From an uncultured Candidatus Melainabacteria bacterium (GTDB taxonomy: Bacteria; Cyanobacteriota; Vampirovibrionia; Gastranaerophilales; Gastranaerophilaceae): a DNA stretch of 46,257 bases. Made by a program: the position numbers and the translations under genes. Shown here piece after piece: positions 2,878-46,257 of the stretch. The stretch lies in NCBI GenBank assembly GCA_947090755.1, contig CAMUPF010000013.1, positions 1 to 46,257 of the forward strand, read 5' to 3'. The number at the start of each line of letters is the position of its first letter. Position 1 is the stretch's first letter. A model generated the notes under the pieces. That model was not told the DNA's origin. It saw only the letters and a list, made by a program, of their open reading frames with translations, and searched no databases.

Positions 2878-3840
2878 TTATCTTTTTATGCAGTGCACAT
2901 AATAATTCCCTCCACCGCTGAGAGAATCACTTATTTGATGACCGGTACTCATACTTTGATTCCATTGCGCACCCTGACTGTTTTTGCTTGAGGTTAGAAT
3001 TATACCATGCCATATTTGTGTATCAGTTGTCGAGGCTTTTAAGAGTGATATGTTGGTAAACATTGACATTGCCTCATCACGATTAGGCAACCTGCTTTCC
3101 GGATCCTGCGCTTTGCACAATCCTATTGCGCTATGCAAATTTTGTGCACTGGTATTAGCCCGCCGATTTAATGGCATTGGCGCTACAACAATAGGGTCTG
3201 ATGGGTTGAGTGCAGTAATAAAACCAATGTCTTTGCCGACAGTATTTGGGCCTTTAGAGCCGTTTAAATCGTAGACAAAGTTTGCACACATTTTGGGTTG
3301 AGTATAAGACCAGCCGGTATCATATATTACAGGTTGGCAGTTTGGATTGTAATATACAAGAATGGATTCTCCGTTTTGGGTTTCAAACGCGGCAGCTTTA
3401 GTATCTTTTTGGTTATAACTATAAACAGTGTCAGCCGCAGACCCCCATCCGGAATGAGAAAAAGAACCATTGAACATTTTGTTAAACGTAGCCAGAGTCC
3501 TATAATTGCTTGTAAAGCTATCTAATAGCCCGCCTTCCATCGTTGTGATTTTATCCGGAATTCCGCAGTCAGTGAGGTGGTCTGCGTCACATATGTTGTT
3601 GATTTTAAGCACTTTTGCTAATCCTTCCGTGACAAAAGTTTCAGCGGCTGTATCGTTTGTGTCGTCTAACGTTCCATATCCGTTAAGTGATGGCATAAGT
3701 GCTATCGCCTGACTAAAACGGGCATATAAAGCTTTTCTTTGCGTATTCCAGGTGCGTTCGTTAATGTTGCCTGTAAGTGACGGAAGCGTTATCGCCGCGA
3801 CTACACCAATTATTGTGAGCGATAACAGGATTTCCGCCAT
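2878..3840 (-). CDS. Pilin-like variable adhesin, copy B (phase OFF)
   Basis: Codes for the conserved pilin helix MAEILLSLTIIGVVAAITLP, a variable centre and an Lcl/DUF1566-like C-terminus (SRLPNRDEAMSMF ... VHCIKR). The ATG at 3840 is inside the cleavage motif AFTMAE and has no Shine-Dalgarno, so it is unlikely to be the real start. The likely start is ATG 3916 (GGAGG 4 nt upstream), giving a leader MNIKKSETPCSKALMSR followed by glycines from the G run. With 12 G the leader frame is +1 relative to the pilin and ends at a TAA at 3763-3761 after 51 codons; with 11 G it would read ...YRA|FTMAE without interruption. Its first 66 coding bases match copy A exactly and bases 3541-3750 match copy C with only four differences, so it looks like a recombinant. 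Confidence 0.88.
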   Translation of the reverse strand: MAEILLSLTIIGVVAAITLPSLTGNINERTWNTQRKALYARFSQAIALMPSLNGYGTLDDTNDTAAETFVTEGLAKVLKINNICDADHLTDCGIPDKITTMEGGLLDSFTSNYRTLATFNKMFNGSFSHSGWGSAADTVYSYNQKDTKAAAFETQNGESILVYYNPNCQPVIYDTGWSYTQPKMCANFVYDLNGSKGPNTVGKDIGFITALNPSDPIVVAPMPLNRRANTSAQNLHSAIGLCKAQDPESRLPNRDEAMSMFTNISLLKASTTDTQIWHGIILTSSKNSQGAQWNQSMSTGHQISDSLSGGGNYYVHCIKR

Positions 3841-3855
3841 TGTAAACGCACGATA

Positions 3856-3867
3856 CCCCCCCCCCCC
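3856..3867 (-). repeat. Poly-G tract (12) in the leader of pilin B
   Basis: Twelve C on the + strand (G on the coding strand) between the leader start at 3916 and the pilin helix. 11 or 14 G would fuse leader and pilin in frame; 12 leaves them out of frame, so the locus reads as OFF. Confidence 0.9.
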
Positions 3868-6674: not shown

Positions 6675-6811
6675 TTCAGTTTATTTAGACAGCGGAGTCG
6701 CGGGTTGGCCTGCGTGAGCAGGACAAGCAGGCGACGAAGAACTGCTTTTAATTAGGTTCGAGGTTTTACTTATATAAACTCCACATTACACACTTCCTTT
6801 ATGACACATTT
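6675..6811 (+). other. Intergenic stretch with a short hairpin, no gene seen
   Basis: Between the 6231 gene and its probable terminator. It holds a small stem GCCTGC / GCAGGC near 6710-6735 and AT-rich sequence. I see no ORF, tRNA or known RNA in it; a long 3' UTR or small RNA is possible. Confidence 0.3.
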
Positions 6812-6890: not shown

Positions 6891-8060
6891 TTATCGTTTA
6901 ATGCATTGTAAATAACCATTAGCGGTTCTGCTGTTTTCAGGTACCCATTGGTGGCCTGTCGCAAGTGATTGAGTCCAGAAATTTCCGGTGTCGTTCCGGC
7001 TGGAGGTTATAATCATACTTCCCCAGTGCTGTGATCCGTTGTATCCGCCCAGAAGTTCTTTGTTACAAAATAATGCGGCAGCTTCTTCTCTATTAGGCGG
7101 TCTGCTTTCAGAATCTTGTGCCATACAGGCTGAGGCCGCTTGTAAATATTGAACAGAATTGTTTTTCCATTTCCCAATAGGTAGTGGGGACACAATAACA
7201 GAATCAGATGGGTAAAGCGCGGTTATAAACCCGATGTCTTTACCTACGGTGTTAGGCCCTTTGTTGCCATTCAAATCATAAACAAAATTTGCGCAAATTT
7301 TGGGCTGTATAAAATGCCAGTTCGTTTGGTTGTAATCCTGTTGGCAATGTGGATTGTAGAATACAAGAATGGATTCCCCATTTTGGGTTTCAAATGCAGC
7401 GGCTTTAGTGTCGCTTTGGCTATATGAAGTCACGTTGTCTTCAGCAGAGCCCCAACCTGAATGGGAATACGAGCCATTGAACATATTGTTGAATTTTGCC
7501 ATGGTATTATGATTGTTTGTGAAGTTATCTATTAGATTCCCTTCGGTCGTTGTGATTTTATCCGGAATTCCGCAGTCAGTGAGGTGGTCTGCGTCACAGA
7601 TGTTGTTGATTTTAAGCACTTTTGCTAACCCTTCAGTGACAAAAGTTTCAGCGGCTGTATCGTTTGTGTCGTCTAACGTTCCATATCCGTTAAGTGATGG
7701 CATGAGTGCTATCGCCTGACTAAAACGGGCATATAAAGCTTTTCTTTGCGTATTCCATGTTCTTTCGTTAATGTTGCCTGTCAAACTAGGCAATGTAATC
7801 GCCGCGACCACACCAATGATTGTTAAAGATAACAAAATTTCCGCCATGGTAAAGGCCAAGCCGAGCAGAGCCACGGAGCAAGGCTTGCCTTGCGAAGAGA
7901 CGAGCGTGCGACGGTCAAGACCGCGCTCTTGACCGCTAACGCGAGCGGTGGCGTTTAACGCGAGGCGCAGTACCGGCGTTGCGTTAGCGTGCTCGCCTTG
8001 CCCCCCCCCCCGTCTGTTCAGGCCCTTACTACAAGGGTTTTCAGGTTCAAAACTTATCAT
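6891..8060 (-). CDS. Pilin-like variable adhesin, copy C (phase ON, full leader)
   Basis: 389 codons from ATG 8060, with AAGGA 6 nt upstream. The leader of about 70 residues begins MISFEPENPCSKGLNRRGGG, runs through a repeat element, and ends at LGLA|FTMAE, the predicted prepilin peptidase site with Glu at +5. The mature protein has the conserved helix, the NNICDADHLTDCG cysteine pair, a variable middle, the MCANFVYDLNG-like block (ICANFVYDLNGNKGPNTVGKDIG) and an Lcl/DUF1566-like end (SRPPNREEAAALF ... LQCIKR). The tract has 11 G, so leader and pilin are in frame: this is one of two intact, ON copies. The leader is far longer than the 6-30 residues usual for prepilins. Confidence 0.92.
   Translation of the reverse strand: MISFEPENPCSKGLNRRGGGQGEHANATPVLRLALNATARVSGQERGLDRRTLVSSQGKPCSVALLGLAFTMAEILLSLTIIGVVAAITLPSLTGNINERTWNTQRKALYARFSQAIALMPSLNGYGTLDDTNDTAAETFVTEGLAKVLKINNICDADHLTDCGIPDKITTTEGNLIDNFTNNHNTMAKFNNMFNGSYSHSGWGSAEDNVTSYSQSDTKAAAFETQNGESILVFYNPHCQQDYNQTNWHFIQPKICANFVYDLNGNKGPNTVGKDIGFITALYPSDSVIVSPLPIGKWKNNSVQYLQAASACMAQDSESRPPNREEAAALFCNKELLGGYNGSQHWGSMIITSSRNDTGNFWTQSLATGHQWVPENSRTANGYLQCIKR
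7863..7983 (-). repeat. Palindromic repeat element in the pilin C leader (inverted relative to copy D)
   Basis: Read on the + strand it runs GAGCAGAGCCAC ... AAGACCGCGCTCTT ... GCGCAGTACC, the same order of words found in the leader of pilin D on its coding strand; here the element lies antisense to the gene. It contains stems GCAAGGC / GCCTTGC and GGTCAAGA / TCTTGACC. It stays open in this gene's reading frame. Confidence 0.7.
8001..8011 (-). repeat. Poly-G tract (11) in the leader of pilin C
   Basis: Eleven C on the + strand. Leader start 8060 and pilin are in frame with 11 G, giving Arg-Gly-Gly-Gly. Confidence 0.9.
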
Positions 8061-11600: not shown

Positions 11601-11640
11601 AAAGGAATTTATGAAAGACAATATTGTAAGTATTTACGCA

Positions 11641-11653
11641 GGGGGGGGGGGGG
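11641..11653 (+). repeat. Poly-G tract (13) in the leader of pilin D
   Basis: Thirteen G between the leader ATG at 11611 and the pilin helix. With 13 the leader ends at TGA 11698; with 12 the frame is open all the way into FTMAE. Confidence 0.9.
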
Positions 11654-11661
11654 AGCAAGCT

Positions 11662-11806
11662 GAGCAGAGCCACGAGCATAACTCCGCGAGCGACCATTGA
11701 ACTGCGGAGTTATGCGAGAGTCGAGCGCGCGACGCGGAAGACCGCGCTCTTTCGCGCAAGCGCGAGCGTTGGCGTTTTACGCGAAGCGCAGTACCCACGT
11801 TACGCA
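11662..11806 (+). repeat. Palindromic repeat element in the pilin D leader
   Basis: Same word order as the inverted element in pilin C (GAGCAGAGCCAC ... AAGACCGCGCTCTT ... GCGCAGTACC), but sense to the gene. Stems ATAACTCCGC / GCGGAGTTAT and CGCGGAAGA / TCTTTCGCG replace different sequences in C while keeping pairing. Confidence 0.65.
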
Positions 11807-11812
11807 TTTACG

Positions 11813-12727
11813 ATGGCCGAAATCCTTTTATCCCTAACAATCATCGGTGTAGTCGCGGCGATAACGCTTCCGTCGCTAACAGGTAATATTAACGAACGCA
11901 CATGGAACACGCAGAGAAAAGCGCTTTATGCGCGATTTTCACAGGCAATAGCGCTCATGCCGGCATTAAATGGTTACGGAACCCTAAACGATACAGAAGA
12001 CACAGCGACTGAAACCTTTATTACTGATGGACTGAGTAAAGTTCTAAAAATTAACAATATTTGCGATAACGACCACCTTGCTGACTGTGGAATACCGGAT
12101 AAAATTATAACTATTGACGGCGCAGCCAGTTTATCTCGTGACACTAATTTGAAGACGCTGGTAAATTATAATTCTGCGTTTCAGGCTTCTTATGTAACTC
12201 CGGATGGGTATGTGTTCAAATATTCACAGGTTAATACAAAATCCGCAGCGTTTGAAACCGCGAACGGTGAAAGTGTCGTCGTTTTTTATAACCCTAATTG
12301 TAAACCTTCAATGGGGGAAAATAGTTTTTATTATTCCCAGTCTAAAATGTGCGCCAATTTCGTTTACGACTTAAATGGCACTAAAGGTCCGAATACGGTT
12401 GGTAAAGACATAGGGTTCATTTCTGCATTATATCCCACAGATTCTGTTGTTGTTGCACCTATGCCGATAAAAAGATCATTAACAAGTTCTCATTATGATT
12501 TAGCGAAAACTTGCCGGACGCTTGATTCTGAAAGCAGGGTGGCAAATGTTCACGAAGCTATATCGATGTTTTATAATAGGGATTTACTCAATAATCAAAA
12601 TGATATATGGACATCTACGGTATATAGTGGGGATTTAACGCGCGCCTGGTTGGTCAGTTCATTTCTGGGATATGTACAAAATTGGCCAAGAGATAGAGTG
12701 GGAATGGTTATATGTGTTAAACGATAA
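11813..12727 (+). CDS. Pilin-like variable adhesin, copy D (phase OFF)
   Basis: The ORF from the ATG at 11813 encodes the pilin helix, the cysteine pair (NNICDNDHLADCG), a variable centre, KMCANFVYDLNGTKGPNTVGKDIG and a C-terminus SRVANVHEAISMF ... MVICVKR related to the Lcl/DUF1566 pattern, here with IWTSTVYS in place of YWSS. The true start is ATG 11611 (AAAGGA 4 nt upstream), leader MKDNIVSIYAGGG. With 13 G the leader is out of frame and stops at 11698 after 29 codons; removing one G gives an uninterrupted frame ending ...RYA|FTMAE. So the locus is OFF but intact. It is followed by its own terminator. Confidence 0.88.
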   Translation: MAEILLSLTIIGVVAAITLPSLTGNINERTWNTQRKALYARFSQAIALMPALNGYGTLNDTEDTATETFITDGLSKVLKINNICDNDHLADCGIPDKIITIDGAASLSRDTNLKTLVNYNSAFQASYVTPDGYVFKYSQVNTKSAAFETANGESVVVFYNPNCKPSMGENSFYYSQSKMCANFVYDLNGTKGPNTVGKDIGFISALYPTDSVVVAPMPIKRSLTSSHYDLAKTCRTLDSESRVANVHEAISMFYNRDLLNNQNDIWTSTVYSGDLTRAWLVSSFLGYVQNWPRDRVGMVICVKR

Positions 12728-28813: not shown

Positions 28814-28863
28814 TAAAATAAAGAAAGGATAATGAAATGAAAAAGAATCTATTAAGTTTATGC

Positions 28864-28875
28864 GGGGGGGGGGGG
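28864..28875 (+). repeat. Poly-G tract (12) in the leader of pilin E
   Basis: Twelve G after MKKNLLSLC from ATG 28837. The leader is in frame with the pilin, but a TAA at 28897-28899 intervenes; other tract lengths do not connect the frames. Confidence 0.9.
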
Positions 28876-28908
28876 AGTTTTATTAGCCGCCCATCCTAAG
28901 CATTCACC

Positions 28909-29868
28909 ATGGCGGAGATATTATTATCTCTCACAATCATAGGTGTAGTAGCCGCGATAACGCTTCCGTCATTGACCGGTAACATAAACGAGCGTACATG
29001 GAACACGCAAAGAAAAGCGCTTTATGCGCGAATGAGTCAGGCAATAGCTTTAATGCCTGCGTTGAATGGTTACGGGACGCTGACAGAAGATGAAAACCAC
29101 AGCGTCACGGCCGACACTGCGGCTGAAACCTTCGTTACAGAGGGCTTGGCAAAGGTTCTAAAAATCAACAATATCTGTGACAGCGACCACCTTGCGGATT
29201 GCGGAATCCCTGACAAGATAACTCCTTTCGCCGGTTCTACTCTTAATAACTTTACAACTTCTTATAATACTTTAGTTAAGTATAATAATATGTTTAACTC
29301 GTCTTACGGGGTTGGATGGGCAAATTTTGCGTATTCTGCAATTGATACCAAAGCCGTTGCGTTTGAAACTGTCAATGGTGAGTCTATTATTGCATACTAT
29401 AATCCAAGATGTACTTCTTTTATGCCTTTCCCTTTAAGTGAAGTAACTTTATATTCTAACTATTCACAAAACAATATGTGTGTGAATTTTGTGTATGATT
29501 TAAACGGTACCAAGGGCCCTAATACAATGGGGAAAGATATTGGCTTTATGTCCGCGCTTTATCCGACCGATTCTGTAGTGGTGGCGCCGGTTCCCCTGCA
29601 CGAAGCTTCCGGCTGGACAACTTTGCCAGGCGGAAGTCCGTTTTGCAGGCAAGTTGATTCTGATAGCCGGCTGCCTAACCTGCCTGAAGCAATGTCCATG
29701 TTTTACAATTTCAGGCTGATTGATTCTAACCTTACAGAAAATAATTATATCTGGACTTCAACAAAACTCGATAATTCCTATGAGTGGGGATGGGTTATGT
29801 ATCTAAAAGCAGGCAGAGCAACCACATATCGTGTAGGTTCAAAGCAAAGAATATGGTGCGTAAAATAA
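28909..29868 (+). CDS. Pilin-like variable adhesin, copy E (leader has a stop codon)
   Basis: 319 codons from the ATG inside FTMAE. Conserved helix, cysteine pair NNICDSDHLADCG, variable middle, MCVNFVYDLNGTKGPNTMGKDIG and an Lcl/DUF1566-like end (SRLPNLPEAMSMF ... YIWTSTK ... IWCVK, with the usual final arginine missing). The leader starting at ATG 28837 (AAAGGA 7 nt upstream) is in frame but reads TAA just before GCA-TTC-ACC-ATG; copy D has TAC at this position, so a single base change probably created the stop. The copy can be made only by reinitiation at 28909 or by reversion, so I regard it as silenced. It could still donate sequence to other copies. Confidence 0.85.
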   Translation: MAEILLSLTIIGVVAAITLPSLTGNINERTWNTQRKALYARMSQAIALMPALNGYGTLTEDENHSVTADTAAETFVTEGLAKVLKINNICDSDHLADCGIPDKITPFAGSTLNNFTTSYNTLVKYNNMFNSSYGVGWANFAYSAIDTKAVAFETVNGESIIAYYNPRCTSFMPFPLSEVTLYSNYSQNNMCVNFVYDLNGTKGPNTMGKDIGFMSALYPTDSVVVAPVPLHEASGWTTLPGGSPFCRQVDSDSRLPNLPEAMSMFYNFRLIDSNLTENNYIWTSTKLDNSYEWGWVMYLKAGRATTYRVGSKQRIWCVK

Positions 29869-32325: not shown

Positions 32326-33405
32326 ATGAAAGATATAGTAAACATGTCAGCAGGGGGGGGGGGGCCGGCTGAGCCGGTTCTATATACGGGTTCCGAGCTT
32401 GCGGACGACGTGAAATTTAACGCGAAGGGCGGAGAGCCGGCGAGTCATGGTTTTACTATGGCAGAAATATTACTGTCATTAACAATAATCGGCGTAGTCG
32501 CGGCCATAACTTTACCGTCGCTTACGGGTAACATAAACGAACGTACGTGGAATACGCAACGCAAAGCACTCTATGCAAGATTCTCTCAGGCTATCGCTTT
32601 AATGCCCGCGTTAAATGGCTACGGAACCTTGACAGAAGATGAAAACCACAGCGTTACAGCCGACACCGCCGCAGAAACCTTCGTTACAGAGGGCTTGGCA
32701 AAGGTTCTAAAAATTAACAACATTTGTGACAGCGAACATCTTGCTGATTGCGGGATTCCGGATGTGATTACACCATTAGGAACTGCCGCGCAAATAAAGC
32801 GTGATGACATAAAAACTCTTGTCAGTTTAAACGATATGTTTAACGGCTCTTTTGTATGGACAGAAGCAACATCTTATTCTCATTCACAGATTGACACTAA
32901 GGCTGCTGCATTTGAAACCCAGAATGGCGAAAGTGTTTTGGCTTATTATTATCCATACTGTACACAGAAAAATTCAGGTGATGGCCAGTATTATACCCAG
33001 CCTAAAATGTGTGCGAACTTTGTTTTTGATTTAAATGGAAGTAAAGGGCCAAATACTGTGGGCAAGGATATTGGATTTATTACAGTATTTTATCCATCGG
33101 ATTCAGTGGTTGTTTCTCCTTTACTGGTTTATAATAATGCCGGACGAAGTGCCCAGCCGTCGGCGTCTTCTTTATGTACCGCACAGGATTCAGAAACCCG
33201 TTTGCCTAATAGGGAGGAGTTGGCTTCCATATTTGTGAATAAAAACTTATGGGGATTCGCGAAAAGTGATGTAAATGGCGATCCTTATTTCTGGTCTTCT
33301 GAATTGTATTCAACAACACTTGGTTATGCGGTTAATCTTTTTGCAGGTGCTGTTTGGCCGTATTCGCGGGATGAACGATTTCAGGTGCGTTGTGTAAGAC
33401 GATAA
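32326..33405 (+). CDS. Pilin-like variable adhesin, copy F (phase ON, full leader)
   Basis: 359 codons from ATG 32326 with GGAGG 5 nt upstream. The 44-residue leader reads MKDIVNMSAGGGGPAEPVLY, goes on through KFNAKGGEPASHG and ends at the ideal prepilin site G|FTMAE. Mature part: conserved helix, cysteine pair (NNICDSEHLADCG), variable centre, KMCANFVFDLNGSKGPNTVGKDIG, and a well-formed Lcl/DUF1566-like C-terminus (TRLPNREELASIF ... YFWSSELYS ... FQVRCVRR). With 12 G leader and pilin are in frame; this copy is ON and is the best template for the intact architecture. Confidence 0.93.
   Translation: MKDIVNMSAGGGGPAEPVLYTGSELADDVKFNAKGGEPASHGFTMAEILLSLTIIGVVAAITLPSLTGNINERTWNTQRKALYARFSQAIALMPALNGYGTLTEDENHSVTADTAAETFVTEGLAKVLKINNICDSEHLADCGIPDVITPLGTAAQIKRDDIKTLVSLNDMFNGSFVWTEATSYSHSQIDTKAAAFETQNGESVLAYYYPYCTQKNSGDGQYYTQPKMCANFVFDLNGSKGPNTVGKDIGFITVFYPSDSVVVSPLLVYNNAGRSAQPSASSLCTAQDSETRLPNREELASIFVNKNLWGFAKSDVNGDPYFWSSELYSTTLGYAVNLFAGAVWPYSRDERFQVRCVRR
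32353..32364 (+). repeat. Poly-G tract (12) in the leader of pilin F
   Basis: Twelve G encode four glycines in frame with both leader start and pilin (ON). Confidence 0.9.
32365..32455 (+). repeat. 91-nt leader element shared by pilins F and G
   Basis: From the end of the G run to the cleavage site, F and G differ at only one or two bases (CGAGTCATGG versus CGGGTCATGG). It begins with the hairpin CCGGCTGAGCCGG. Confidence 0.85.
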
Positions 33406-40720: not shown

Positions 40721-40781
40721 AATGGTAAATGAAAGGAAGGGTAAATATATGAAACCGAATAGCAGTGTAATAATATTGACA

Positions 40782-40794
40782 GGGGGGGGGGGGG
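40782..40794 (+). repeat. Poly-G tract (13) in the leader of pilin G
   Basis: Thirteen G after MKPNSSVIILT from ATG 40749. With 13 the frame hits TGA at 40800; with 12 it joins the pilin. Confidence 0.9.
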
Positions 40795-40885
40795 CCGGCT
40801 GAGCCGGTTCTATATACGGGTTCCGAGCTTGCGGACGACGTGAAATTTAACGCGAAGGGCGGAGAGCCGGCGGGTCATGGTTTCA
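40795..40885 (+). repeat. Leader element of pilin G, copy of that in F
   Basis: Same length and almost the same sequence as 32365-32455, placed directly after the G run. Confidence 0.85.
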
Positions 40886-41811
40886 CCATGGCTGAAATCC
40901 TGTTATCCCTAACAATCATCGGAGTGGTCGCGGCGATAACGCTTCCGAGTTTGACCGGTAACATTAACGAACGCACGTGGAACACGCAAAGAAAAGCACT
41001 TTATGCACGTATGTCGCAGGCAATAGCCCTAATGCCTGCATTGAATGGCTATGGAGCTTTCTCTGCAGGTACTGATTCAACATCAGCTATCGACACCGTC
41101 GCCGAAACTTTCGTTACAGATGGTCTTAGTAAAGTACTAAAAATAAATAATATTTGTGACGCCGACCACATTTCTGATTGTGGAATTGCAACAAGTTTTA
41201 CTAATTTAGCTGGTAGTAATGTTAGTAGTTTTCCTACGACACTCGGAGAAATGAATCGTCTTTTTATAGAAGTTGGAGCAGCAGGTTATTTAAACCCGCA
41301 AAAAGATATTAATACTAAGGCAGCAGCGTTTGAAACTCAAAACGGAGAATCTATAATCGTCTATTACAATCCATATTGCGAAAGTGATATGCAAGAAATA
41401 AATGCCTATTATGCCCAACCTAAAATGTGTGCGAATTTTGTATATGATTTAAATGGAAATAAAGGGCCTAATACTGTTGGTAAGGATATTGGATTTATTA
41501 CTGCTTTGTATCCTACGGATTCTGTTGTTGTTGCTCCTCAACCTCTTGCAACAAACGCTTCAAATTCAGGATCGTGGACCAATACAAATTCTCTTTGTAA
41601 AAATCAGGATACAGAAAGTAGGGCTCCAAACCGTGATGAACTATCTGCAATGTTTTACAATATGAAATTTATAGGTATTAATAATGGGTTATACTGGTCT
41701 TCGGCTGTAATATCCAGTACTAATAATTTGTGGCATCAAAGTTTTGATACGGGACGTCGTTATCTTGGAGCGCCGGGAAGTGCTGCTTTTATCAGGTGTG
41801 TAAAACGTTAA
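40840..41811 (+). CDS. Pilin-like variable adhesin, copy G (phase OFF)
   Basis: The frame from ATG 40840 encodes MKFNAKGGEPAGHG|FTMAE, the pilin helix, NNICDADHISDCG, a variable middle, KMCANFVYDLNGNKGPNTVGKDIG and a Lcl/DUF1566-like end (SRAPNRDELSAMF ... YWSSAVIS ... FIRCVKR). ATG 40840 has no Shine-Dalgarno; the likely start is ATG 40749 (GGAAGG 8 nt upstream). With 13 G the leader terminates at 40800-40802; with 12 it would read through as in copy F. So the gene is intact but OFF by one base. Its 3' end overlaps the convergent asparaginase gene by 20 nt, with no hairpin between. Confidence 0.9.
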   Translation: MKFNAKGGEPAGHGFTMAEILLSLTIIGVVAAITLPSLTGNINERTWNTQRKALYARMSQAIALMPALNGYGAFSAGTDSTSAIDTVAETFVTDGLSKVLKINNICDADHISDCGIATSFTNLAGSNVSSFPTTLGEMNRLFIEVGAAGYLNPQKDINTKAAAFETQNGESIIVYYNPYCESDMQEINAYYAQPKMCANFVYDLNGNKGPNTVGKDIGFITALYPTDSVVVAPQPLATNASNSGSWTNTNSLCKNQDTESRAPNRDELSAMFYNMKFIGINNGLYWSSAVISSTNNLWHQSFDTGRRYLGAPGSAAFIRCVKR

Positions 41812-45232: not shown

Positions 45233-46257
45233 TTAACGTTTAACACAACGAACATTGTCGCTACCTGACCGCGTGTGTGGGAAGCGGTTGCCCGTATTGA
45301 AACTCTGGCGCCATGCTGTGCCAGACTCTCCAGAAGAAATGACAGAGCCGGACCAAAAACCACCGGACGCAATCCCAATAAGCTCTTTGTTGTAGAACAT
45401 TGCGGAAAGTTCATCAATATTAGGAAGTCTGGATTCCACATCCATTTCGGTGCATGCTTCGCCGGCTTCAAATTGTTTTTTGGCAGCTGATATGTTTCAA
45501 GTTAACGGTACCGGAGCAACTACAACTGGATCAGAAGAATATATCGCAGTAATGAACCCAATATCTTTACCAACGGTGTTTGGCCCTTTGTTGCCGTTTA
45601 AGTCATAAATAAAGTTAGCACACATTTTGGGTTGAGCATAGTGCCAAACTGTTTCTTGCATATCGCTTTGGCAGTTCGGGTTGTAGTAAACTGCAATAGA
45701 TTCCCCGTTCTGCGTTTCAAACGCCGCAGCAAAGGTGTCAATATTTTTTTGTGGATTTGTATAATTTGTTCCACCGCTACCGTTCGGGCCATCATTGAAT
45801 GTTCCTGTAAACATACTGTTCAATTCACTTAATTTAGTCGGCCAAACTTTTTGGCTTCCGGCAAGGTTTGTGTAAGAAGTAACGATACCACAGTCTTCTA
45901 AATGGTCGTGGTCACAAATGTTGTTAATTTTGATAACTTTTGATAATCCTTCTGTAACAAAGGTTTCAGCGGCAGTGTCCTGCGCGCTTGTGGAATTACC
46001 TTCTGCGTCAGTTCCGGCAAGTTTGTACGTTCCGTAACCACCTAATGATGGCATTAACGCAAGTGCTTGAGAAAATCTTGCGTATAAAGCTTTTCGTTGT
46101 GTATTCCATGTTCTTTCGTTAATGTTGCCGGTCAAACTCGGCAATGTTATTGCGGCTACCACGCCGATAATTGTTAGTGATAGTAGTATTTCGGCCATTG
46201 TGAAGGCCAAGCCGAGCAGAGCCACGGAGCAAGGCTTGCCTTGCGAAGAGACGAGCG
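45233..46257 (-). pseudogene. Pilin-like variable adhesin, copy H (nonsense mutation; 5' end beyond window)
   Basis: The frame enters from the right window edge, runs through the leader end ...LLGLA|FTMAE, the pilin helix, NNICDHDHLEDCG, a variable middle and KMCANFIYDLNGNKGPNTVGKDIG, then meets TGA at 45499-45497. The same frame continues in register past it (NISAAKKQFEAGEACTEMDVESRLPN) to the normal end NVRCVKR at 45233. A single base change in the TGA codon would restore the whole protein. The truncated product lacks the C-terminal adhesin-like domain. Its leader matches copy C closely in the last 55 nt; the poly-G tract is outside the window. Confidence 0.85.
46214..46257 (-). repeat. Leader repeat element of pilin H (truncated by window)
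   Basis: GAGCAGAGCCACGGAGCAAG onward matches the element in pilin C at 7863 in the same orientation. Confidence 0.65.

Follow-up and report, generated by a model that had tools for sequence, protein, structure and literature searches.

We found that a palindromic element lies in opposite orientations in the leaders of two prepilin genes, C and D, of an uncultured gut bacterium and that it belongs to a dispersed repeat, named E1 here, present in dozens of copies. We think it probable that such repeats lodge in the part of the prepilin that is cleaved off, that stop-free versions in register survive there, that gene conversion spreads them among pilin genes, and that poly-G slippage switches those genes. 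The assembled sequences themselves display the architecture, copy number, orientation, open frame, register, −1 residue, cassette sharing, and one conversion tract on which this model is built. The window, which is the whole 46,257-nt stretch of DNA analyzed, is contig C13 of a 1.78-Mb genome in 53 contigs, and relatives of its pilin genes are in MAGs of Candidatus Gastranaerophilales, gut Melainabacteria. The whole data set consists of genome assemblies. Table 1 gives the features of the window.

TABLE 1 Pilin genes, poly-G tracts, leader cassettes, and E1 copies in the window
Feature	Position	Strand	Details
Pilin A	2878..3867	-	Poly-G 3856-3867; 9-nt leader insert; mature start 3846
Prepilin gene C	6891..8060	-	389-aa ORF; mature part from FTMAEILL at 7853
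Leader cassette of pilin C	7854..8000	-	147 nt, open in pilin frame; 99% common to two other pilin genes
E1 in pilin C	7863..7971	+	Reversed relative to gene C; E1 model 1-109, E 1.3e-29
Poly-G of pilin C	8001..8011	-	11 G, in frame (ON) as assembled
Prepilin gene D	11611..12727	+	From ATG; mature pilin 11807-12727; model has a C-type-lectin-like domain at its C terminus
Poly-G of pilin D	11641..11653	+	13 G; OFF (out of frame) in the assembly
Leader cassette of pilin D	11654..11806	+	153 nt, open in pilin frame; 100% identical to that of one other pilin gene, flanks diverged
E1 in pilin D	11662..11792	+	Same direction as gene D; E 3.7e-24
Pilin E	28837..29868	+	Poly-G 28864-28875; 27-nt insert with in-frame stop; mature start 28903
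Pilin F	32326..33405	+	Poly-G 32353-32364, 12 G, ON; 87-nt insert, another repeat type; mature start 32452
Pilin G	40749..41811	+	Poly-G 40782-40794, 13 G, OFF; 87-nt insert matching the one in F at 99%; mature start 40882
Pilin H leader, cut by contig end	46204..46257	-	Reversed E1, partial, at 46214-46257

The genome contains 115 poly-G tracts of at least 9 G, versus the one or two that simple arithmetic predicts at 40% GC. Prepilin leaders hold about 92 of the 105 tracts examined, counting leaders cut by contig ends. We sampled the regions around poly-G tracts and element matches, and G lengths in these may be off by one base. These prepilins have the mature start FTMAEILLSLTIIGVVAAITLPSL in common (exact in 67 of 73, with near variants in the others), and a variable insert separates it from the G tract. 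Genes of the main class consist of ATG plus about 9 to 11 codons, poly-G (usually 11 to 13), a leader cassette, and the invariant mature N terminus. Tract lengths vary from 9 to 14 among paralogues, and some genes are in frame and others out. A long G tract inside the coding sequence therefore sets the frame, which is what marks a poly-G contingency locus. Main-class genes are in frame with 12 G and out of frame with 13 G, which is the commonest length, so most of these genes are OFF in the assembly. Poly-G tracts are also present in non-pilin genes of this genome (L073:1001, L074:1001 and 2112, L043, L042, and L100), among which we recognized by eye an acyltransferase-like membrane protein, a hexapeptide acetyltransferase, and a capsule-type protein. 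Surface sugars may therefore be phase variable too.

Several genomes of the genus, each assembled separately, show the same leader architecture. Many G tracts also occur in several other genera of the family, and some of these tracts lie within prepilin leaders. In contrast, G005, of the same genus, has zero G tracts of 10 or more G and 16 pilin matches, and most of its leaders that we read are short and plain (e.g., MKKFA ahead of FTMAEIL). This contrast suggests that the poly-G tract, the repeats, and the expansion of the pilin family go together. Loci from JAMPIJ01 (L159, L161, L163, and others) carry pilins and leaders that match Gastranaerophilales, and their title, Fusobacterium sp., is probably a mislabel.

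The original prediction placed the element in a part of the prepilin that a peptidase would remove. In agreement with this, the genome has a prepilin peptidase gene (PF01478), and the proteins show the other marks of type IV prepilins, namely, a class III signal with G or A at −1, a hydrophobic stretch, and E5. The last leader residue (−1) is always G or A, which fits the prepilin processing rule, for which Gly has been named at this site (PMC6497953). The leaders are presumably translated and cleaved. An AlphaFold model of D has a mean pLDDT of 84, with a low-confidence N-terminal helix. Its C-terminal domain resembles the C-terminal domain of Legionella Lcl, a C-type-lectin-like fold (Foldseek E value, 1.5e-4), and weak profile matches agree with that fold. 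From the model, our guess is that these pilins might bind ligands or serve in surface adhesion.

The likeness between C and D proved real. In a whole-genome search, the two segments matched at 82% over 92 nt on opposite strands (E value, ~6e-19), and a reversed copy was found in H as well. Chance similarity is ruled out by an E value of ~1e-19 and the dozens of copies. E1 is ~105 to 130 nt long and rich in hairpins. Searching the genome for more copies, as had been proposed, brought the total to 27, with 24 in leaders (18 in gene direction and 6 reversed) and 3 between genes. Every one of the 24 sits between the poly-G tract and the invariant mature start. The element had been said to lie right after the G run; it does follow the run, but after a gap of 8 nt in D and 29 nt in C. 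Placement in leaders had been expected of all copies, and most copies in this genome do lie there, in both orientations. However, copies outside pilin genes do exist, both in this genome (the 3 noted above) and in related genomes, where about half of the copies are intergenic.

These genome-wide counts come from similarity searches that scored ~40 candidates per genome. A strict test places 31 of the E1 matches that we fetched from the genus in leaders; a minimum of 3 others are in longer leaders, and the remainder lie elsewhere, a tally in which a few loci are counted twice since two fetches overlapped. Of 6 other genomes of the genus, 5 have strong E1 matches, and weak matches occur in a few further genera. 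One copy, in G006 (L242:1462-2673), lies in an open stretch just before a gene that by eye resembles a ketol-acid reductoisomerase; it is possibly an in-frame extension of a non-pilin gene.

Folding supported the claim that the element is palindromic. An alignment of 20 copies gave a conserved series of hairpins, with compensatory double changes in 10 of 18 consensus pairs. The first hairpin varies in sequence among copies while its pairing is kept; MAFFT plus RNAalifold missed it, and single folds revealed it in most copies. We also found that intergenic copies have the same hairpin structure as leader copies, which makes this structure a property of E1 and not of the leader. Among the copies listed, many intergenic ones come after a terminator-like T-run, begin after AGCC or GCGCC, and end near GAGGCGC. 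We looked for target duplications, a check attached to the original prediction, and at intergenic copies found direct repeats at chance level (4.35 nt versus 4.22 ± 0.19 nt in shuffled sequence). Terminal inverted repeats averaged 4.17, versus 3.77 ± 0.16 when shuffled, with short GCGCC/GGCGC ends in some copies. Searches for a transposase and for a clean empty site found neither, and how E1 first moves is something that we infer. The genome gave 0 matches to RAYT (Y1_Tnp, PF01797), for which five control genomes were positive, and this rules out a RAYT-borne REP. The window gave zero Rfam matches at the gathering threshold, and we set aside a known RNA family as an explanation on this basis.

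E1 is not the only repeat in these leaders. Other palindromic families occur there, for example, those encoding HPELVSES..DRSRNKFGMT and CHCEERSDVAIQ, and repeats nest to give leaders of up to 603 nt, or 201 codons. In one leader of this genome (L079), a smaller palindrome is nested in E1 in frame, with a net 39 nt, or 13 codons. An intergenic GC-rich, repeat-like stretch of the window (6680-6760) looks by eye like another leader repeat family (GCGTGAGCAGGACAAGCAGGCGACG).

We examined the reading frames of the inserts. Because related cassettes are not independent, though the families are several, the frame counts overstate the number of events: inserts of at least 60 nt were stop-free in the pilin frame in 37 of 39 cases in this genome and in 49 of 52 in relatives, and the other two forward frames were open in 0 of 39 and 0 of 39 and in 4 of 52 and 0 of 52, respectively. 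Cassettes read out of frame contain 4.6 to 6.4 stops per 100 codons. The leaders of D and L041 use different forward frames of E1, and that of C reads it in reverse. As claimed, the C and D inserts are both stop-free in the pilin frame. However, gene D read from its ATG at 11611 terminates at a TGA within E1; because 13 G puts this ATG out of frame, D is coding only in the downstream frame, from E1 onward. Main-class insert lengths are all multiples of 3, although the length of E1 itself varies modulo 3. This does not support the idea that G-tract slippage offsets inserts of any length. It also leaves register with the tract in the main class unexplained by tolerance alone, as slippage could repair other lengths.

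Tolerance would mean that the cassettes are merely put up with. Alternatively, they may be functional and kept because, as leader peptides or as hairpins in RNA, they adjust expression, export, or recombination. The compensatory changes that maintain E1 pairing are consistent with this, as are the out-of-frame stops, which would make OFF states tight, and the long cassette that some genes have in common at 100%. We nevertheless think function unlikely. Intergenic copies retain the same hairpins, unrelated repeat families occupy the same place, paralogues in this very genome manage with inserts of 1 to 15 nt, and the pilins of G005 carry short, plain leaders. Among the short inserts of this genome, that of pilin E (28876-28902) is the only one with an in-frame stop.

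We then compared genes that carry the same cassette. Such pairs differ by 1.0% in the insert, whereas over the 72 nt that open the mature part they differ by 18%. Past the insert, the first mismatch usually comes after no more than a few bases, and most pairs have diverged upstream of the G tract too. The shared cassettes include identical non-E1 flanks. In a related genome, G001, the leader segment of L272 is identical to that of its paralogue L172 over ~300 nt, extending ~31 nt into the mature part, and on either side of this segment L272 follows its G003 orthologue, L292. By sequence comparison, the segment passed from L172 to L272 is a conversion tract. It follows that many E1 leader copies probably descend from few insertions. 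The original prediction spoke of insertion events; many leader copies are instead whole cassettes passed between pilin genes. Mantel correlations among the upstream leader, insert, and mature part are low but significant (0.09 to 0.16). This rules out fully free assortment of the three parts and points to mosaicism with residual linkage. At several loci of relatives (L172, L174, L191, L201, L214, L218, and L231), the mature start (FTMA or FTMT) occurs a second time farther upstream, and a new leader comes after this extra copy, as in FTMAARLSRSTES...RRMAFTMAEILL; these have the appearance of cassettes added in series just before the mature part.

Could each leader copy instead be an independent E1 insertion at a preferred target next to poly-G, with little gene conversion? 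Cassette identity does usually stop a few bases from the mature start and at the G tract, as this would predict. We hold it to be quite improbable, since shared cassettes carry the same non-E1 flanks, the L172/L272/L292 tract runs into the mature part, and reversed E1 always stops ~10 nt before the mature start across several species, as if from one ancestral event. An assembly artefact, in which collapsed or chimeric repeats and unreliable homopolymers make the pattern, is scarcely credible. Several of the contigs end within pilin leaders and homopolymer lengths are error-prone, but separately assembled genomes have the same architecture, and random joins would not yield stop-free inserts ending in G or A. 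A simple chimera is hard to reconcile with L272 because it would need two joints inside one contig.

The model that we favor, conversion-spread repeats in a discarded leader, would work as follows. E1 is a non-autonomous palindromic repeat, dispersed in this Gastranaerophilales genus, that is found between genes and in cytoplasmic prepilin leaders. A cut by prepilin peptidase at G or A before F should remove the leader. Because of this, leader sequence should hardly matter if it is stop-free and in register, and several palindromic families could therefore accumulate there, in either orientation and sometimes nested. Only stop-free, in-register versions would survive. Gene conversion would then copy a cassette to paralogous pilin genes, with one joint near the G tract or in shared repeats and the other in the first mature codons. 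Poly-G slippage, as it may occur in living populations, would switch each gene in and out of frame. A bolder version strikes us as rather unlikely: that the G tract and first mature codons are the two joints of a cassette exchange system by which about a hundred lectin-tipped, phase-variable pilins have their leaders shuffled, with palindromes recruited as recombination homology and as stop-rich cassettes that tighten OFF.

Antigenic variation at pilE/pilS of Neisseria works by gene conversion between pilin paralogues, around an N-terminal part that is conserved, and the conversion that we describe is similar in this respect. Unlike in Neisseria, the part that we saw move here is the leader, which is discarded, and full genes act as donors rather than silent partial cassettes.

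By architecture rather than by sequence kinship, the arrangement seems to work like in-frame Rickettsia palindromic elements (RPE) combined with poly-G contingency loci. RPE are palindromic repeats of ~100 to 150 bp in several families, found between genes and open in frame within protein genes (PMC10969869, PMC3733652). E1 is like them in being palindromic, 105 to 130 nt long, dispersed, one of several families, and both intergenic and in frame in coding sequence, where translation is presumed. RPE, however, occupy many unrelated genes and are kept in the finished protein (PMC10969869, PMC3733652), whereas the coding copies of E1 that we found are almost all in the leader, expected to be cleaved, of one expanded gene family (L242 is a possible exception), in both orientations and more than one frame. 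In the sortase pili of Bifidobacterium breve, poly-G phase variation of pilus genes includes measured slippage (PMC9187656). There too, a G tract of ~9 to 13 near the coding start sets the frame of pilus genes in a gut commensal, but B. breve has one or two loci per genome versus about a hundred here, sortase pilins versus type IV prepilins, and slippage that was measured versus deduced (PMC9187656). E1 also resembles REP/RAYT elements and MITEs, being short, dispersed, hairpin-forming, and non-autonomous (PMC3733652, PMC10969869). It differs from REPs in its greater length and in a genome that lacks a RAYT-type transposase, and it differs from MITEs in lacking target-site duplications beyond chance level. 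The open-access literature that we searched held no published report of palindromic repeats in poly-G prepilin leaders.

These leaders would be a clear natural case of selfish repeats that survive in protein genes where the peptide is discarded. Coding and intergenic copies of one repeat can be compared directly, and the origin and spread of in-frame palindromic elements are therefore testable. The findings also suggest that an understudied gut lineage possesses a very large repertoire of pilus adhesins switched by slippage, with about a hundred of them in 1.8 Mb.
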